A stretch of DNA of 6,519 nt from a bacterium (GTDB lineage Bacteria; B130-G9), in the NCBI GenBank assembly GCA_021160245.1, contig JAGHCW010000113.1, positions 1-6,519 of the forward strand, read 5' to 3'. Within the stretch, counting starts at the first letter, position 1, and every line of letters starts with the position of its first letter. The position numbers and the translations under genes were made by a program. Shown piece by piece: positions 1 through 6,499 of this stretch. Under the pieces are notes generated by a model. The model was not told the DNA's origin. It made no database searches and saw only the letters and a program-made list of their open reading frames with translations.

Positions 1-782
1 GACCCAGGTGGTACGAGCGTGAGAGGCCGAGGCGGCATATCGGCAGCATGCTCGTTGTCGCGTCGTTACTTCTCGGACTAACTGGAGTTTTGCTCGTTCC
101 CTCAGCGAGAGCAAGGGTCTCCGGTCTCTTCACGTCGCAATTCAGCATCAGGCAGATAATCCTTGTCGGGAAAGACGGATTCGATATGAGCGAGGTCACA
201 AGCTGCTGCCTCAGCAATATGGGTCGCTCGCTCATCACGTCTTCGTCCGATGAGATACTTGAGAGGGTGGGTCGGTTGCCCTCGGTAAAGGGAGTGAGTT
301 TAAGGAAGCAGCTGCCCTCAACAATGATCATCTATTTGCAGCCAAGAGAGCCCAGGTTCAAGACGATGCGTGAGGATAAATTGTGTGGTATTTCCGAGGA
401 CGGCTATATTCTGAGCGCGCAAGATCGAGGCCAGTTTGAGAGCTTGCCGGCTCTCTCCGGGCTTACCTACTCGCACACAGATAATATCACAAGGGTACGC
501 AATGAGTACTTCTCGGACATTGTCAGACTCTGCAACATGTTTAATGACGCAAGCTCCGAGAGCCGACTTGGACCCGAGGCGGTGATCGAGGCGGTTGACA
601 AATTGGAGGTGCGCGTGCGACCCACGAAGGCCGGACCAGTTCTAATCTTTTCTCTGGACGATTGCGATCGGCAAATGAAGAAGTACAGAAAAGCGATTCC
701 CACACTAGCGGAATACACGAGCAAATCTAAGATAGTGGACCTTAGATTTCGGGGTCAGATAGTATTGAGTAACAAGAATTGA
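1..782 (+). CDS. ftsQ: Cell division protein FtsQ (5' end cut by window)
   Basis: FtsQ is a bitopic membrane protein that scaffolds the divisome, bridging early proteins and the septal synthase complex through a periplasmic POTRA domain. The frame is open from the left edge. Codons before the ATG at 48 encode a strongly basic stretch (PRWYERERPRRHIGS), followed at once by a membrane segment (MLVVASLLLGLTGVLLV). This cytoplasmic-tail-then-anchor layout suggests the true start lies upstream of the window, with the ATG at 48 internal; GAGG at 29-32 is too far from that ATG to be convincing. Numbering from that Met, a POTRA-like region spans about residues 33-100 (GRSLIT, then LPSVKGVSLRKQLP, typical of FtsQ/DivIB), followed by the beta domain with SEDGYIL, ending in VDLRFRGQIVLSNKN, the usual FtsQ finish. 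The stop is 21 bases before ftsA, so the genes are probably cotranscribed. Family assignment is strong from motifs and neighbours; the exact start is unknown. Confidence 0.88.
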   Translation, partial: PRWYERERPRRHIGSMLVVASLLLGLTGVLLVPSARARVSGLFTSQFSIRQIILVGKDGFDMSEVTSCCLSNMGRSLITSSSDEILERVGRLPSVKGVSLRKQLPSTMIIYLQPREPRFKTMREDKLCGISEDGYILSAQDRGQFESLPALSGLTYSHTDNITRVRNEYFSDIVRLCNMFNDASSESRLGPEAVIEAVDKLEVRVRPTKAGPVLIFSLDDCDRQMKKYRKAIPTLAEYTSKSKIVDLRFRGQIVLSNKN

Positions 783-803: not shown

Positions 804-2102
804 ATGTTTCATAGAAGAGTGCCCCTAATCTGTGCCCTTGACATCGGCTCGTCCAAGATACGTGCGGTGATTGCGGAGCTAATCGAGAGCGATCAGGACG
901 CCGACTCGGCCAATGACAGCAAGTCCCAAGCGCCGCTCAAGGTCGTTGGGCGGGCGGAGAAACCGTCGAGTGGCATAGTAGGAGGGGAAATAGTCAATGT
1001 GGAGCAGGCGGCTAGTTCGATAAGGGACGCTGTGGACGCCGCATCGGTCATGGCATCCGTTGACATAAGGGAGGTTGTGGTCTCATTCAATGGCCGCCAT
1101 CTAAGGTCAGTCAACAGCGATGGTAGAATCTCACTCACCAGCACATCGGCATCTGATGACGTCCAACCGGTGAGGGAGATTTCCGAAGCGGATATCCAGC
1201 GAGCGCTCAATAGCGCAAGGTCTGTTACCGTCCGCTCAGACGAGAACATGCTCCATACTATACCACTAGATTTCTCTGTGGATGAGACGCGTCACATCAA
1301 GGACCCACGAGGCAAGACGGCGGCGCGGCTGGCGGCCAATGTTAGGTCCATCATTGCGCCGCAGAGCGCGGTTTCAGACCTAGATAGGGCGCTTGATGGC
1401 GCGCGGCTCGAGTCGAGAGATAGAGTTTTGCAGTCTCTTGCCGCGGCCAAAGCGTGCTTGAAGCAGGATGAAATGGAGGAGGGAACTCTCCTAATAGATA
1501 TCGGCAAGGGCACAACCCACTCCGTTATCGTTTGGGGCGGAGTCCCGAGATACACAAGCTGTGTAGCAATGGCCGGCGATTTCGTAACGGCAGATGTAGC
1601 TCACGCAGCCAAGTGCAATAACGACAAAGCCGAGAAGATCAAAATCATGACCGGCTGTGGCAGTGACGACGCACAACCTGTGGAAGGCCGTCTGGAGTCG
1701 CTTGTGGCCCAGGATGACCAGCCCGGGCCGGACCCAAAAGTCATGCTGGCAATTGCCGCTCGTTATTCAGAGCTTTTCCTGACGATTAGGGATGACATCC
1801 GTCGAGCAAAGGCGGAGCACTTCATCAAGCTAGGCGTCGTCCTGACGGGGGGCGGTTCTTGCTGTTTCGGCATCGAGCGGTTGGCCGCGAGGATTTTTGG
1901 CGTTTCCGCCAAGAGGGACCTGTGCATGGGAGCAGGTTGCTTTGACGCCTCGTTGCGGCATCCGCGATTCTCTACGGTTACAGGGCTGCTTCTCCATACA
2001 CTGGACCCATTTACAAGGTCGGACCTCTTGCCCAATGAAGCGCCTTCGTTCATCAGACGGGCATGGAATGCAATTACTTGCAGGGATTTTGTTCTTACTT
2101 AG
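804..2102 (+). CDS. ftsA: Cell division protein FtsA, divergent
   Basis: FtsA is an actin-family ATP-binding protein that anchors FtsZ to the cytoplasmic membrane and recruits later divisome proteins. The 432 residues match the usual length. The phosphate-1 motif is LDIGSSK (residues 12-18). Domain 1C covers roughly residues 85-165 (EVVVSFNGRHLRSVNSDG, then ISEADIQRAL and the LHTIPLDF segment). IKDPRGKTAARLAANV (165-180) is typical FtsA. The phosphate-2 motif is DIGKGTTH (232-239), where most FtsA have DIGGGTTD or similar. The adenosine motif is VVLTGGGS (345-352). The C terminus, SFIRRAWNAITCRDF, resembles the amphipathic membrane-targeting helix. It lies between ftsQ and the ftsZ-family gene in the standard dcw order, with a good ribosome binding site. 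MreB or a pilus-type PilM are alternatives, but the 1C domain, C-terminal helix and neighbours favour FtsA. The altered phosphate-2 motif may affect nucleotide handling; this is inference. Confidence 0.92.
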   Translation: MFHRRVPLICALDIGSSKIRAVIAELIESDQDADSANDSKSQAPLKVVGRAEKPSSGIVGGEIVNVEQAASSIRDAVDAASVMASVDIREVVVSFNGRHLRSVNSDGRISLTSTSASDDVQPVREISEADIQRALNSARSVTVRSDENMLHTIPLDFSVDETRHIKDPRGKTAARLAANVRSIIAPQSAVSDLDRALDGARLESRDRVLQSLAAAKACLKQDEMEEGTLLIDIGKGTTHSVIVWGGVPRYTSCVAMAGDFVTADVAHAAKCNNDKAEKIKIMTGCGSDDAQPVEGRLESLVAQDDQPGPDPKVMLAIAARYSELFLTIRDDIRRAKAEHFIKLGVVLTGGGSCCFGIERLAARIFGVSAKRDLCMGAGCFDASLRHPRFSTVTGLLLHTLDPFTRSDLLPNEAPSFIRRAWNAITCRDFVLT

Positions 2103-2198: not shown

Positions 2199-3380
2199 AT
2201 GAACACAACAGAAGTGGTTCCATCCACACCCCCGAGCGGGCCTCTTGTCATAGGCGGCCAGCTTGAGCAGCTCAGCAGAACAATGCCATTCGTCCAGTTT
2301 GCGACGTCCAGACCAAAGCCAGCCGTTGCAGGAGTGCTTGTCGCCGGTGTAGGCGGCGATGGCTGCATGCTTATCGAGCAGATGCAGGAGCAATGCGACG
2401 ACGCCCTCGACTTCGTTGCTTTGGATACGGACAATATGTCGCTTGAGCGACTTAGAATGACCAATAAGATACTGCTAGGAAGCGACGCCGGCGATAAGAT
2501 AGGCACAGGCGGAGACAGGGCAAAGGGGAAAGCCGCTGCCGAAGAGGCCTTAGAGGAATGGCAGAAGCTGGTTCGGGACTATGGGATGGTGCTGATCGTA
2601 GCCGGAATGGGTGGCGGAACGGCCTCCGGCGCGGCCGGATATCTGGCCCTGCTGGCGAGGCAGGCGGGCGCCTTAACGATAGCCATTGTCTCATCGCCCT
2701 TTGAATACGAATGCCAGCAGAAGGCCGAGAATGCCGCATTGGGCATCGCCGAGCTTGAAAAAAGCGCAGATAGCATCATCGTCCTGCCGAACGATAGGAT
2801 ATTCTCACAGGATACTAAGATCACCTATTATGACGCGCTGAGGCGCCGCGACCAGTATTTGATAGACATCGTTTTGGGCATGACAGACCTCGTGTTTCTG
2901 CCGGCGAAGATGAAGATCGATTTCGGCTCCATCAAGACCGTGATAGAGGGCGGCGGAACAATGGTGGTCGCCACTGCCGAGGCTTCTGGAGAGAATAGAG
3001 TTGATGAGCTCGTCGAGAGCTTGATGAACAATGGCATAGTGGACCATCCCCCGATGTCGAGCGCAAGAGCGCTGCTACTCGTAACAACAATAGGCTACAA
3101 CGTAACTGCCTATGACGGACTCAAGGTCAAGTCAAGAATTACAGCGACCGTCCATCCAAATGCAAAGGTATTCTGCAGCACTAGGCTGGTTGAGAACCCC
3201 AGTGATGGCATCTCCGCAACTCTGATCGCAACCCACTTCGATGTGGAAGTGAAGTCCAATGCGGACACCATGGAGTTCAACAAGATATTCACAATCGAGC
3301 AGATCAACAGCGCTGACCTAACCCATGGGGTCCACGTTCCAGCATACAAGCGAATAAAACTTGAGTGCAAAGAACAGTGA
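2199..3380 (+). CDS. ftsZ: FtsZ-family GTPase with degenerate T7 and T1 loops
   Basis: This is a tubulin/FtsZ-family protein of 393 residues, normally the polymer-forming GTPase of the division ring. A roughly 40-residue extension precedes the first strand. Motifs in order are T1 AGVGGDG (49-55, canonical GVGGGGGN, here missing the Gly run and Asn), T2 DTDNMSL (76-82), T3 IGTGGDR (101-107), T4 GMGGGTASG (136-144, canonical GGGTGTG or GGGTGSG), T5 SSPFEYE (165-171) and T6 LPNDR (196-200). The T7 loop reads KIDFGS (239-244), against canonical NxDFxD. The first catalytic-loop residue is Lys and the last Asp is Ser; only the middle Asp241 remains. The C-terminal domain runs to about residue 350. 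After a linker of only about 25 residues comes HVPAYKRIKL (379-388), resembling the conserved C-terminal peptide that binds FtsA. Position after ftsQ-ftsA supports a role in division. It could be the sole FtsZ of a divergent lineage or a specialised paralogue (FtsZ-like). Confidence 0.88.
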   Translation: MNTTEVVPSTPPSGPLVIGGQLEQLSRTMPFVQFATSRPKPAVAGVLVAGVGGDGCMLIEQMQEQCDDALDFVALDTDNMSLERLRMTNKILLGSDAGDKIGTGGDRAKGKAAAEEALEEWQKLVRDYGMVLIVAGMGGGTASGAAGYLALLARQAGALTIAIVSSPFEYECQQKAENAALGIAELEKSADSIIVLPNDRIFSQDTKITYYDALRRRDQYLIDIVLGMTDLVFLPAKMKIDFGSIKTVIEGGGTMVVATAEASGENRVDELVESLMNNGIVDHPPMSSARALLLVTTIGYNVTAYDGLKVKSRITATVHPNAKVFCSTRLVENPSDGISATLIATHFDVEVKSNADTMEFNKIFTIEQINSADLTHGVHVPAYKRIKLECKEQ

Positions 3381-3402
3381 GGCCAGCGCCTCGAGCAAAT
3401 CA

Positions 3403-4350
3403 ATGTCACCTCCAGAAGCACTGAAGCCAAGAGCTCTTCGGCCGGGGGCAACTGTTGGACTAGTTGCCCCATCGGGCCCGGTTGATGCGATGGCGATCAA
3501 GAGCGCGGCCGAGTTCATTCGGAGCCGGGGCTTTCACGTCACGTTCGCAGACCACATTCTCTGCTCCAAAGGCTACCTCGCCGGAACTGACGAGGAACGG
3601 GCGGCGGACCTAAACGCCATGCTGGGCGACCCGAAAATCGACGCGATATTCCTTGCCAAAGGTGGCTTTGGCTCCGCGAGATTGCTGAACCTCATAGACT
3701 ATGACGCAGTGAGGCGCGATCCCAAGCCGCTCGTTGGATTCAGCGACGCGACGGCGCTGCAGCTCGCGCTTCTTAATCGCTGCCGGTTAATTTCATTTTA
3801 CGGACCACTCGCGACAATCGACTTCACTCATAGCCGCGCCTCGTTCTGTTTCAAGGCCCTCTTGAGCGCGTTGAACGCCGAAAGGGGGTGGCAACTTATT
3901 CCGCGTCCCTGGCCAAAGACCATGAAGGCGCTTTCCGAGGGCCGCACCGAGGGACGGCTCATTGGTGGTTGCCTCTCCGTCCTCGCCTCGCTCTTAGGCA
4001 CGCCATTTATGCCCAATATGGATGGCGCCATCCTCTTCCTCGAGGACGTGGACGAGCCACCCTACAGGATAGACCGTTATCTAACCCAGCTTGAACTCGC
4101 CGGCGCCCTATCCTCAATCGCAGGGGTCCTGCTCGGCGCGTTCACCAGATGCCGTCCCCGCCGGAGCCGCCCGTCATGCTCAGCGCATGATGTTCTTGCC
4201 GAGAAGTTCGTTGGCCGAGGCTATCCCGTCATCGCAGGCCTACCATTTGGGCACATTGCGAGAAAAATAACGCTGCCTCAGGGATTGCGCCTCAAAATCG
4301 ACACCGAATCCCAGGATATGCTGGCCCTCGACCCCTCCTGCAGGTTATAG
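3403..4350 (+). CDS. ldcA: Muramoyltetrapeptide LD-carboxypeptidase (peptidase S66)
   Basis: S66 enzymes are serine peptidases that remove the terminal D-Ala from murein tetrapeptides at an L,D bond in cytoplasmic peptidoglycan recycling; MccF relatives instead cleave microcin C-type compounds. From the ATG at 3403 the protein has 315 residues, typical of the family. It opens with LRPGATVGLVAPSGPVD. The motif AKGGFGSARLL (85-95) is followed by the nucleophile elbow GFSDATAL (Ser114). Glu214 lies in LFLEDVDEPPYRIDRYLTQL, and His284 in GLPFGHIARK. Together these form the Ser-Glu-His triad of LdcA. An in-frame TTG at 3361 would overlap ftsZ by 20 bases and add 14 Ser/Ala-rich residues; I prefer the ATG, 22 bases after the ftsZ stop, although neither start has a strong ribosome binding site. 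It is probably cotranscribed with the division genes, which fits a wall-peptide role better than microcin immunity. Confidence 0.88.
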   Translation: MSPPEALKPRALRPGATVGLVAPSGPVDAMAIKSAAEFIRSRGFHVTFADHILCSKGYLAGTDEERAADLNAMLGDPKIDAIFLAKGGFGSARLLNLIDYDAVRRDPKPLVGFSDATALQLALLNRCRLISFYGPLATIDFTHSRASFCFKALLSALNAERGWQLIPRPWPKTMKALSEGRTEGRLIGGCLSVLASLLGTPFMPNMDGAILFLEDVDEPPYRIDRYLTQLELAGALSSIAGVLLGAFTRCRPRRSRPSCSAHDVLAEKFVGRGYPVIAGLPFGHIARKITLPQGLRLKIDTESQDMLALDPSCRL

Positions 4351-4749: not shown

Positions 4750-5490
4750 ATGAAAAATCACGCGCAGAGCGAGATTCAAATAACGACTGTATTCGACAAC
4801 TACGCCTTCCAAGCCCCGCTCAAGACAGCATGGGGATACGCATGTGTCGTAACGGGGCTTGACAAGACAGTGCTTTTCGACACGGGCGGAGACGGCGCCG
4901 TGCTTTTGGCAAACATGAAAGCGCTCAATATCGATCCGAGTTCGATTGACTATGTCTTTTTGTCCCACATAGACGGCGATCACACGGATGGCCTTGCGCA
5001 CTTCTTGGCCGTCAATCCGAATGTTACGGTTCATCTACTTGACTCGTTCCCAAGTGATTTCATGGCCGAGACCCGTCGCCTCGGCGCGAAGGTGCATCCT
5101 GTCGATGGGCCGGAACAGATTTTCGAGACTGCATTTACAACCGGAGTAATTGGACAACTTCGGAGTGAGCATTCTTTAATAGTAGATTTGGGAGAGATCG
5201 CTGCGATCATAACGGGATGTGCCCATCCGGGGATCGCCACGATCGTCGCCCGGGCAAGAGAGATCGTGGATGCTAAGCCCTTCTTAATAACCGGGGGATT
5301 TCACCTCTTTCGATCGAACAAGAGTGAGATCAACGATGTGATCGCCGACCTCAAGGGCCTAGGCGTTAAATGGGCCGGGCCTTGCCACTGCACTGGCGAT
5401 TTGGGGATACATCTCTTCAAGGAAGCGTTTGGCGAGAACTTCATAAAAGTTGGAGTCGGCAAGACGATCAATCTCTCAACGCTCAAGTAG
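4750..5490 (+). CDS. Metallo-beta-lactamase-fold hydrolase, MJ0301/COG1237 type
   Basis: This is a 246-residue MBL-fold protein resembling the family that includes the archaeal enzyme annotated as dihydropterin-6-yl-methyl-aminobenzene ribofuranosyl phosphate synthase (MJ0301); most bacterial members have no assigned substrate. Early strands carry TVLFDTGGDGAVLLANM (40-56), typical of the fold. The metal motif reads SHIDGDHTDG (72-81): His73, Asp77 and His78 of HxHxDH are kept, but the second His is Asp75 (codon GAC, one base from CAC). Further expected ligands are His159 in TGCAHPG, with GGFHL (His185) and PCHCTG (His213), the signature of this subfamily. No signal peptide is visible, so it is probably cytoplasmic. 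It stands alone on the + strand after a long gap and ends overlapping the convergent radical SAM gene by eight bases. The fold is certain; the substrate is unknown, and the Asp substitution could change metal binding. Confidence 0.85.
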   Translation: MKNHAQSEIQITTVFDNYAFQAPLKTAWGYACVVTGLDKTVLFDTGGDGAVLLANMKALNIDPSSIDYVFLSHIDGDHTDGLAHFLAVNPNVTVHLLDSFPSDFMAETRRLGAKVHPVDGPEQIFETAFTTGVIGQLRSEHSLIVDLGEIAAIITGCAHPGIATIVARAREIVDAKPFLITGGFHLFRSNKSEINDVIADLKGLGVKWAGPCHCTGDLGIHLFKEAFGENFIKVGVGKTINLSTLK

Positions 5491-6499
5491 ATCGCACAAG
5501 GCCCACACTTTCTATGCCGACTTCAAGACTTATCTCTCTTGAGGGAACACACGTCTGGCACATCGAAGCGCCTCGATTATGCAGGAGATTGCGCTTCGTT
5601 TTCGATAGTCCGCGCATTTTCCAAACCGTCCTCCAGTCGTCAACCAGCAGGTTCCCGAAGGGCTTGCTCTCAGCCTCCGCAAAGAGGCACGGATGGACGT
5701 CGCCATCAACCGTTACGAAGATGTTCTCCTCTTGCGGACAGGCGCCCAAGTGTTTGAGGACTGGCCGCCCTTGCTTATTGAGCTCGTAGTTGCAGACCTC
5801 ATGCCTCATCGGCAGATCGTCGATATGCAGCGTGCGATACTCATCGTCCTCAAATCGGGAATTATCCACCCGCATCGGCTTCACGTACGCCGCGTCGCAT
5901 CCAATCTGCCGGACGACTCGCTCAAACTGCTCAATCTGCTTGACACTCGTCTTCGTAGCAATCAACTGCGCCTCAACTATCGGAAAATGCCTCCGCAGCT
6001 TGCGCTTCTCAGCGCAGATTGTGGCGATATTGGAAAGCGTCTGCTCGAATACCGCACCCACCTGCTTCGCCTCGTATTCCTGCGGCTCCGCGGAGATTAG
6101 CGTGCAGACAATTCGATGAGGCGCGATTTGGGCCAGGGCCTTTGCCTTCTCACGGGTGATTGTCGCCAGGTTGGAGTTGAGAGTTACCATCAAATTACGT
6201 CTGCGGGCTGCCGCAAGCATCTCGAGTATATCTGGGTTTACGAGCGGCTCGCCTGTGCGGATGAATGTCAGGGCGGTGATTCGACCGCTCACCTTCTTGA
6301 GTATCCTGGTGAAATCCGACAGGGGCATACTCTCCCGTCTTTTGCGCGAGACGTCGAGTATCAAGTTGCACCAGGGACAGCGGAGGTTGCACCTCGTCTC
6401 GACCTCGATCAGAACACAGCGAGGCCATCTTGCCAGCCGGCGGACGGTCTCTTTGGCCGCAATCGCGACTAGCCATGACGGCTTTGACGCGGAGACCAC
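5483..6499 (-). CDS. Radical SAM enzyme with SPASM-like C-terminal cluster domain
   Basis: This is a 338-residue radical S-adenosylmethionine protein. The [4Fe-4S] motif CNLRCPWC (Cys37, Cys41, Cys44) follows the first strand CVLIEVETR, and TGEP (82-85) matches the GGEP region that contacts SAM. Strands LMVTLNSN (103-110) and VEAQLIATK (175-183) fit the partial TIM barrel. The C terminus has Cys254, Cys271 and a CQTC pair (Cys314, Cys317), with FVTVDGDVHPC and GNLLVDDWRTVW, a SPASM-like auxiliary cluster domain. The cysteine count suggests one auxiliary cluster rather than two. Relatives include sulfatase-maturing enzymes and peptide or cofactor modifiers; the substrate cannot be deduced, and no precursor peptide or sulfatase is visible in the window. 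The start is a GTG at 6499 with AAGGA (minus strand, 6511-6515) eleven bases upstream. The frame stays open to the window edge, so an upstream start is possible. Confidence 0.85.
   Translation of the reverse strand: MVSASKPSWLVAIAAKETVRRLARWPRCVLIEVETRCNLRCPWCNLILDVSRKRRESMPLSDFTRILKKVSGRITALTFIRTGEPLVNPDILEMLAAARRRNLMVTLNSNLATITREKAKALAQIAPHRIVCTLISAEPQEYEAKQVGAVFEQTLSNIATICAEKRKLRRHFPIVEAQLIATKTSVKQIEQFERVVRQIGCDAAYVKPMRVDNSRFEDDEYRTLHIDDLPMRHEVCNYELNKQGRPVLKHLGACPQEENIFVTVDGDVHPCLFAEAESKPFGNLLVDDWRTVWKMRGLSKTKRNLLHNRGASMCQTCVPSREISLEVGIESVGLVRST

Follow-up and report, generated by a model that had tools for sequence, protein, structure and literature searches.

The dcw cluster of this bacterial lineage encodes an FtsZ in which the last aspartate of the T7 loop (E. 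coli D212) is replaced by serine, as part of a wider remodelling of the GTPase site. We consider it probable that this is the genuine division FtsZ of the lineage, i.e., a GTP-dependent, FtsA-anchored polymer whose hydrolysis would be remodelled and probably slow or differently organized. The window, by which we mean the whole stretch of DNA analyzed (6519 bases), is an entire contig of a metagenome-assembled genome (G000) of 3.43 Mb and 94.8% completeness.

The domain matches in the window (Table 1) place ftsZ third in an ftsQ-ftsA-ftsZ array, as the initial annotation had it, and this order is kept in two relatives from the same phylum (G001 and G003). Across all four genomes of the phylum (G000-G003) ftsA adjoins ftsZ, and the dcw position is held throughout. 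The LD-carboxypeptidase gene is likewise found shortly 3' of ftsZ in G001 and G003, where the two genes are separated by an ORF for a Cys-containing protein of 184-188 aa (L038:9990-10556 and L039:4118-4672, respectively) that is missing from the window. Most dcw clusters have murG between ftsW and murC; in G001, murC directly follows ftsW (L038:4150), leaving no room for murG.

Table 1. Genes of the window and motifs of its FtsZ (window positions; substitutions in E. coli numbering unless stated).
Feature	Coordinates	Strand	Remarks
ftsQ/divIB	3..782	+	POTRA; PF08478 26.5 bits, cut-off 23; open at the contig 5' end
ftsA	804..2102	+	TIGR01174 281 bits, cut-off 176
ftsZ	2199..3380	+	393 aa; third in ftsQ-ftsA-ftsZ; PF00091 E 1.1e-32, PF12327 E 2.2e-8
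T1 GVGGDGCM	2346..2369	+	N24M; window genome only, G001 and G003 keep N
T2/H2 stretch DTDNM	2424..2438	+	N43D, D45 kept, Q47M; Q47 = S. aureus Q48
Tubulin signature GGGTASG, not GGGTGTG	2610..2630	+	G109A; window genome only, relatives GGGTGSG
T5/H5 stretch FEYECQQK	2700..2723	+	R142K; R142 = S. aureus R143
T7 loop KIDFGS	2913..2930	+	bases AAGATCGATTTCGGCTCC; K239-I-D241-F-G-S244
C-terminal peptide VHVPAYKRIK	3330..3359	+	putative FtsA-binding role, from resemblance to DIPAFLRKQ
LD-carboxypeptidase (S66)	3361..4350	+	PF02016/PF17676; start uncertain, TTG at 3361 being a mechanical choice
Metallo-beta-lactamase-fold protein	to 5490	+	
Radical SAM/SPASM protein	5483-6499	-	nearest tungsten-cofactor maturases, score far under their cut-off

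The base reading, a phmmer comparison and MAFFT alignments agree on the T7 loop as it was initially annotated, with K239 corresponding to N207K, D241 to a retained D209 and S244 to D212S. In the phmmer alignment to M. tuberculosis FtsZ structures the loop is free of gaps (tdlvflpakmKIDFGSiktvi against tdlittpgliNVDFADvkgim), and the MAFFT alignments, the first with about 85 FtsZ sequences and the second with 146, match K, D and S to E. coli N207, D209 and D212. The four phylum genomes examined belong to one family; the loop is readable in three of them, representing two genera, as the ftsZ of G002 is interrupted by a contig end ahead of it. All three carry D212S: G001, whose FtsZ protein is 53-56% identical, and G003 both read SIDFGS, and since they were separately assembled a sequencing error at this position is very unlikely. 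Thus, of the two replacements that had been singled out, the serine is conserved among close homologs and the lysine is not, position 207 being Ser in both relatives. The ftsZ of G003 is split by a frameshift (L039/L099, about 3431-3464) that is probably an assembly error.

By descent, fold and place, the window protein is an FtsZ. It passes the curated Pfam cut-offs for both the Tubulin (GTPase) domain (114.3 vs 33 bits) and FtsZ_C (34.7 vs 27 bits), and the 50 best Foldseek matches are all FtsZ structures (best E 6e-32, TM about 0.8-0.93 by target). The AlphaFold2 model used for this, built from a six-row alignment with a moderate mean pLDDT of 63, sets the T7 loop where helix H8 begins, with low confidence, most of the loop having a pLDDT below 50; the model therefore supports FtsZ identity only and carries no side-chain argument. 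The peptides VHVPAYKRIK and YTPSYLRLK resemble the FtsA/ZipA-binding DIPAFLRKQ. FtsZ C-terminal linkers are usually not conserved; the linker here contains a stretch, FTIEQIN (window 3288-3308; L038:9888-9908), that is kept between genera and is possibly a binding motif. We class the protein as an FtsZ variant and not as canonical because three standard marks are lacking: only D209 remains of the NxDxxD motif of T7, the tubulin signature GGGTGTG/GGGTGSG is absent from the window (it is present in G001 and G003), and the score against NCBIfam TIGR00065 falls below the equivalog cut-off (223.5 vs 295.2 bits), with an alignment that still spans residues 44-357.

The changes extend well beyond T7. 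Crystal structures of S. aureus FtsZ (SaFtsZ; PMC8936486) define eight residues of the composite GTPase site, N44, D46, Q48, G72, R143, N208, D210 and D213 (subtract one for E. coli numbering). These read D, D, M, G, K, K, D and S in the window and D, D, M, G, K, S, D and S in G001. Five of the eight are thus altered (N43D, Q47M, R142K, N207K/S and D212S), at the same positions in both genomes, and the window retains the T7 aspartate D241 (D209), the T3 glycine G104 (G71) and the T2 aspartate D78 (D45). In SaFtsZ, Q48 locks K+ into the T7 loop, R143 is water-bridged to D213, and the water is placed by D210, which swings (PMC8936486); the altered set includes both ends of that bridge and, in Q48, the lock on the potassium site of T7. 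Among 146 surveyed FtsZ, a biased sample in which, from the matches in 386 genomes, those with the highest scores and most of those with the lowest were combined with about 60 from the mid-range, 112 match E. coli at all eight positions, and five or more are changed in only five sequences, two of them from the phylum clade. A further four substitutions, N24M, G109A, G139C and G295S, are confined to the window genome and absent from G001; they may represent further drift, or decay beginning in one species. As such decay in the window genome they could weigh against the reading that we prefer, and G109S is a temperature-sensitive, low-GTPase allele in E. coli (PMC8953583). The initial annotation, correct on T7, had described the protein as well preserved elsewhere, overlooking N43D, Q47M and R142K as well as these four.

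This variant appears to be the only FtsZ of the lineage. G000 and G001 contain one PF00091 and one PF12327 match each, and searches with PF00091, PF12327 and PF13809 (Tubulin_2, without any match) found no second FtsZ in either; each is about 95% complete, which leaves a small chance of a missed second copy. A contig scan with the window FtsZ protein gave no match, nor did a scan of viral contigs with that of G001. ZapA scores above its cut-off in all four phylum genomes, in which no SepF was found as an alternative anchor. Between G001 and G003, dN/dS is 0.08 for the C part and 0.15 for the N part of ftsZ, and 0.16 for ftsA (the window-G001 comparison is saturated and was left out), values indicating that ftsZ is under purifying selection. 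The sole copy, the synteny, the selection and the ZapA genes together favor the first of the two explanations originally offered, namely that the lineage uses a catalytically unusual FtsZ for division.

Loss of D212 is also wider than first annotated, the loop of this lineage having been recognized as unusual and six other lineages missed. D212 is replaced in 8 of the 145 surveyed FtsZ with a readable position: two are rows of the phylum clade, and the others carry Ser (G131, L075), Ala (G116, L082; G136, L089), Glu (G273, L087), Thr (G380, L092) or His (G225, L094). In G131, G116, G136, G273 and G380 ftsZ lies directly after ftsA and the genome has a single PF00091 match; the cleanest case is the 100%-complete G131, with D212S and the remaining seven residues canonical. 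With these five ftsA-adjacent sole copies, the absence of D212 from the only, dcw-encoded FtsZ of a genome is a state that recurs in nature. Parsimony on a quick tree computed without the T7 columns requires at least six D212 changes; the tree has long branches that leave the finer placing unsure, and the stem of the phylum clade is 4.65 changes per column long, the median end branch 0.83. Our literature search, which covered mainly open-access papers, found no report of natural D212 loss in such an FtsZ for bacteria. The dcw FtsZ of G225 (L168; G225:C8:480-1559) is very divergent, and no relative of ftsA was detected next to it; an open frame of 1071 aa in that genome matches Tubulin_2. PF00091 has no match in G138 and G275 (family f136), which are single-contig genomes of 6.4-7.4 Mb and 99% completeness.

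Under the favored explanation, GTP binding would drive end-to-end assembly, FtsA would anchor the filaments via the C-terminal peptide, and ZapA would bundle them. Within the site, K175 and S244 would stand in for the R142-water-D212 bridge, M80 and K239 (Ser at 207 in the relatives) for the hold of Q47 and N207 on the T7 loop and its K+ site, and the D209 equivalent, D241, would still place the water. With bridge and K+ site both replaced, hydrolysis would be slow or otherwise organized, and filament turnover would be slow or proceed via partner proteins and not by fast treadmilling. As had been stated at the outset, loss of the last aspartate cripples E. coli FtsZ: D212A has about 7% GTPase activity (PMC8142252), and D212G, with a GTPase about ten-fold lower, forms static rings on membranes in vitro (PMC7320174) and supports division only after one suppressor mutation elsewhere (PMC5405962). 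In SaFtsZ, R143K assembles with reduced GTPase, and D213N and N208L do not assemble (PMC8936486), so that assembly of the window FtsZ is not assured.

Alternatively, the rebuilt site (Lys 142, Lys 207, Ser 212, Met 47) might hydrolyze GTP at an ordinary rate with D209 placing the water, the role of D210 in SaFtsZ (PMC8936486). The joint alteration of several interacting positions common to two genera speaks for such compensation, as do the repeated losses of D212 and the otherwise canonical site of G131. We nevertheless regard it as unlikely, since the difference at position 207 between the window and its relatives indicates no fixed replacement chemistry there, and the laboratory D212 mutants of the cited papers are all strongly reduced in GTPase or assembly. 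Less likely again is a decaying or repurposed FtsZ that forms no dynamic ring, with division mainly by other means, as proposed for Nitrosopumilus maritimus, whose non-polymerizing FtsZ has no T7 motif (PMC3684127). The degraded T1, tubulin signature and position 295 of the window and the long clade stem would fit it; against it stand the low dN/dS of ftsZ, the unbroken ftsQ-ftsA-ftsZ order, the retention of ZapA and the intact T1 Asn and GGGTGSG of G001 and G003. We assign a very small probability to the other explanation first offered, a specialized paralog capping or modulating a second, canonical FtsZ: some bacterial genomes do carry two FtsZ, and the T7 face is the one that a cap would lose, but this gene sits at the dcw position in each of the four genomes, and a cap or modulator would here be without a partner, no second FtsZ having been found in G000 or G001. 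An error of sequencing or assembly, or a shift of alignment or frame, was rejected as having a negligible chance, for all that the sequences come from metagenome-assembled genomes and one ftsZ is frameshifted: the near relatives show D212S and not NxDFxD, and the gap-free alignment with solved FtsZ allows no shift that would restore canonical residues.

The GTPase of FtsZ sets the speed of treadmilling, and the extent to which division needs it is debated. We raise, tentatively and as the less probable case, the proposal that one phylum-level lineage and, independently, five or more others rely for division on a single FtsZ from which the catalytic last T7 aspartate is gone, GTPase treadmilling of the E. 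coli/B. subtilis type being dispensable in nature. If so, ring turnover in them would be slow, would rely on partners to disassemble the ring, or would use another chemistry of hydrolysis. In the laboratory, mutants of D212 grow poorly or need a suppressor, whereas here the replacement is fixed in the apparent only FtsZ of a phylum-level lineage. These FtsZ would hence be natural test material for the minimum hydrolysis that a Z-ring needs, and for whether division needs fast GTP hydrolysis; moreover, NxDxxD in T7 is an unsafe marker of a working FtsZ.

Compared with known systems, the window protein shares with the canonical FtsZ of E. coli, S. aureus and M. tuberculosis the fold, loop order, D209, T3 glycine, PND loop and place after ftsA, and has a C-terminal peptide resembling theirs. 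It differs from them in N207K, D212S, R142K, Q47M and N43D, in scoring under the TIGR00065 equivalog cut-off, in an N-terminal extension of about 35 residues and in a post-core tail of 45 residues (67 in E. coli). In beta-tubulin, the equivalent of D212 is K254, which as in the window is not acidic, and the GTP facing it in tubulin dimers is not hydrolyzed; whereas tubulin alternates two subunits, the window FtsZ would carry the change at all interfaces. The same T7 aspartate is gone from the laboratory mutants E. coli D212G and D212A and B. subtilis D213A; their sites are otherwise intact and D212G needs a suppressor (PMC5405962), whereas in the window the loss arose naturally, is fixed and comes with further substitutions. 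The FtsZ of N. maritimus is likewise a natural FtsZ without the normal T7 motif; however, that organism is thought to divide by Cdv and its FtsZ does not polymerize (PMC3684127), whereas the window lineage has FtsA, FtsQ and ZapA, and no other FtsZ was found in it. Finally, the FtsZ of Ca. Thiosymbion oneisti is also natural and has a low GTPase activity, measured in that case (PMC8953583) and only predicted for the window protein; unlike the latter, it keeps its T7 loop and catalytic residues.
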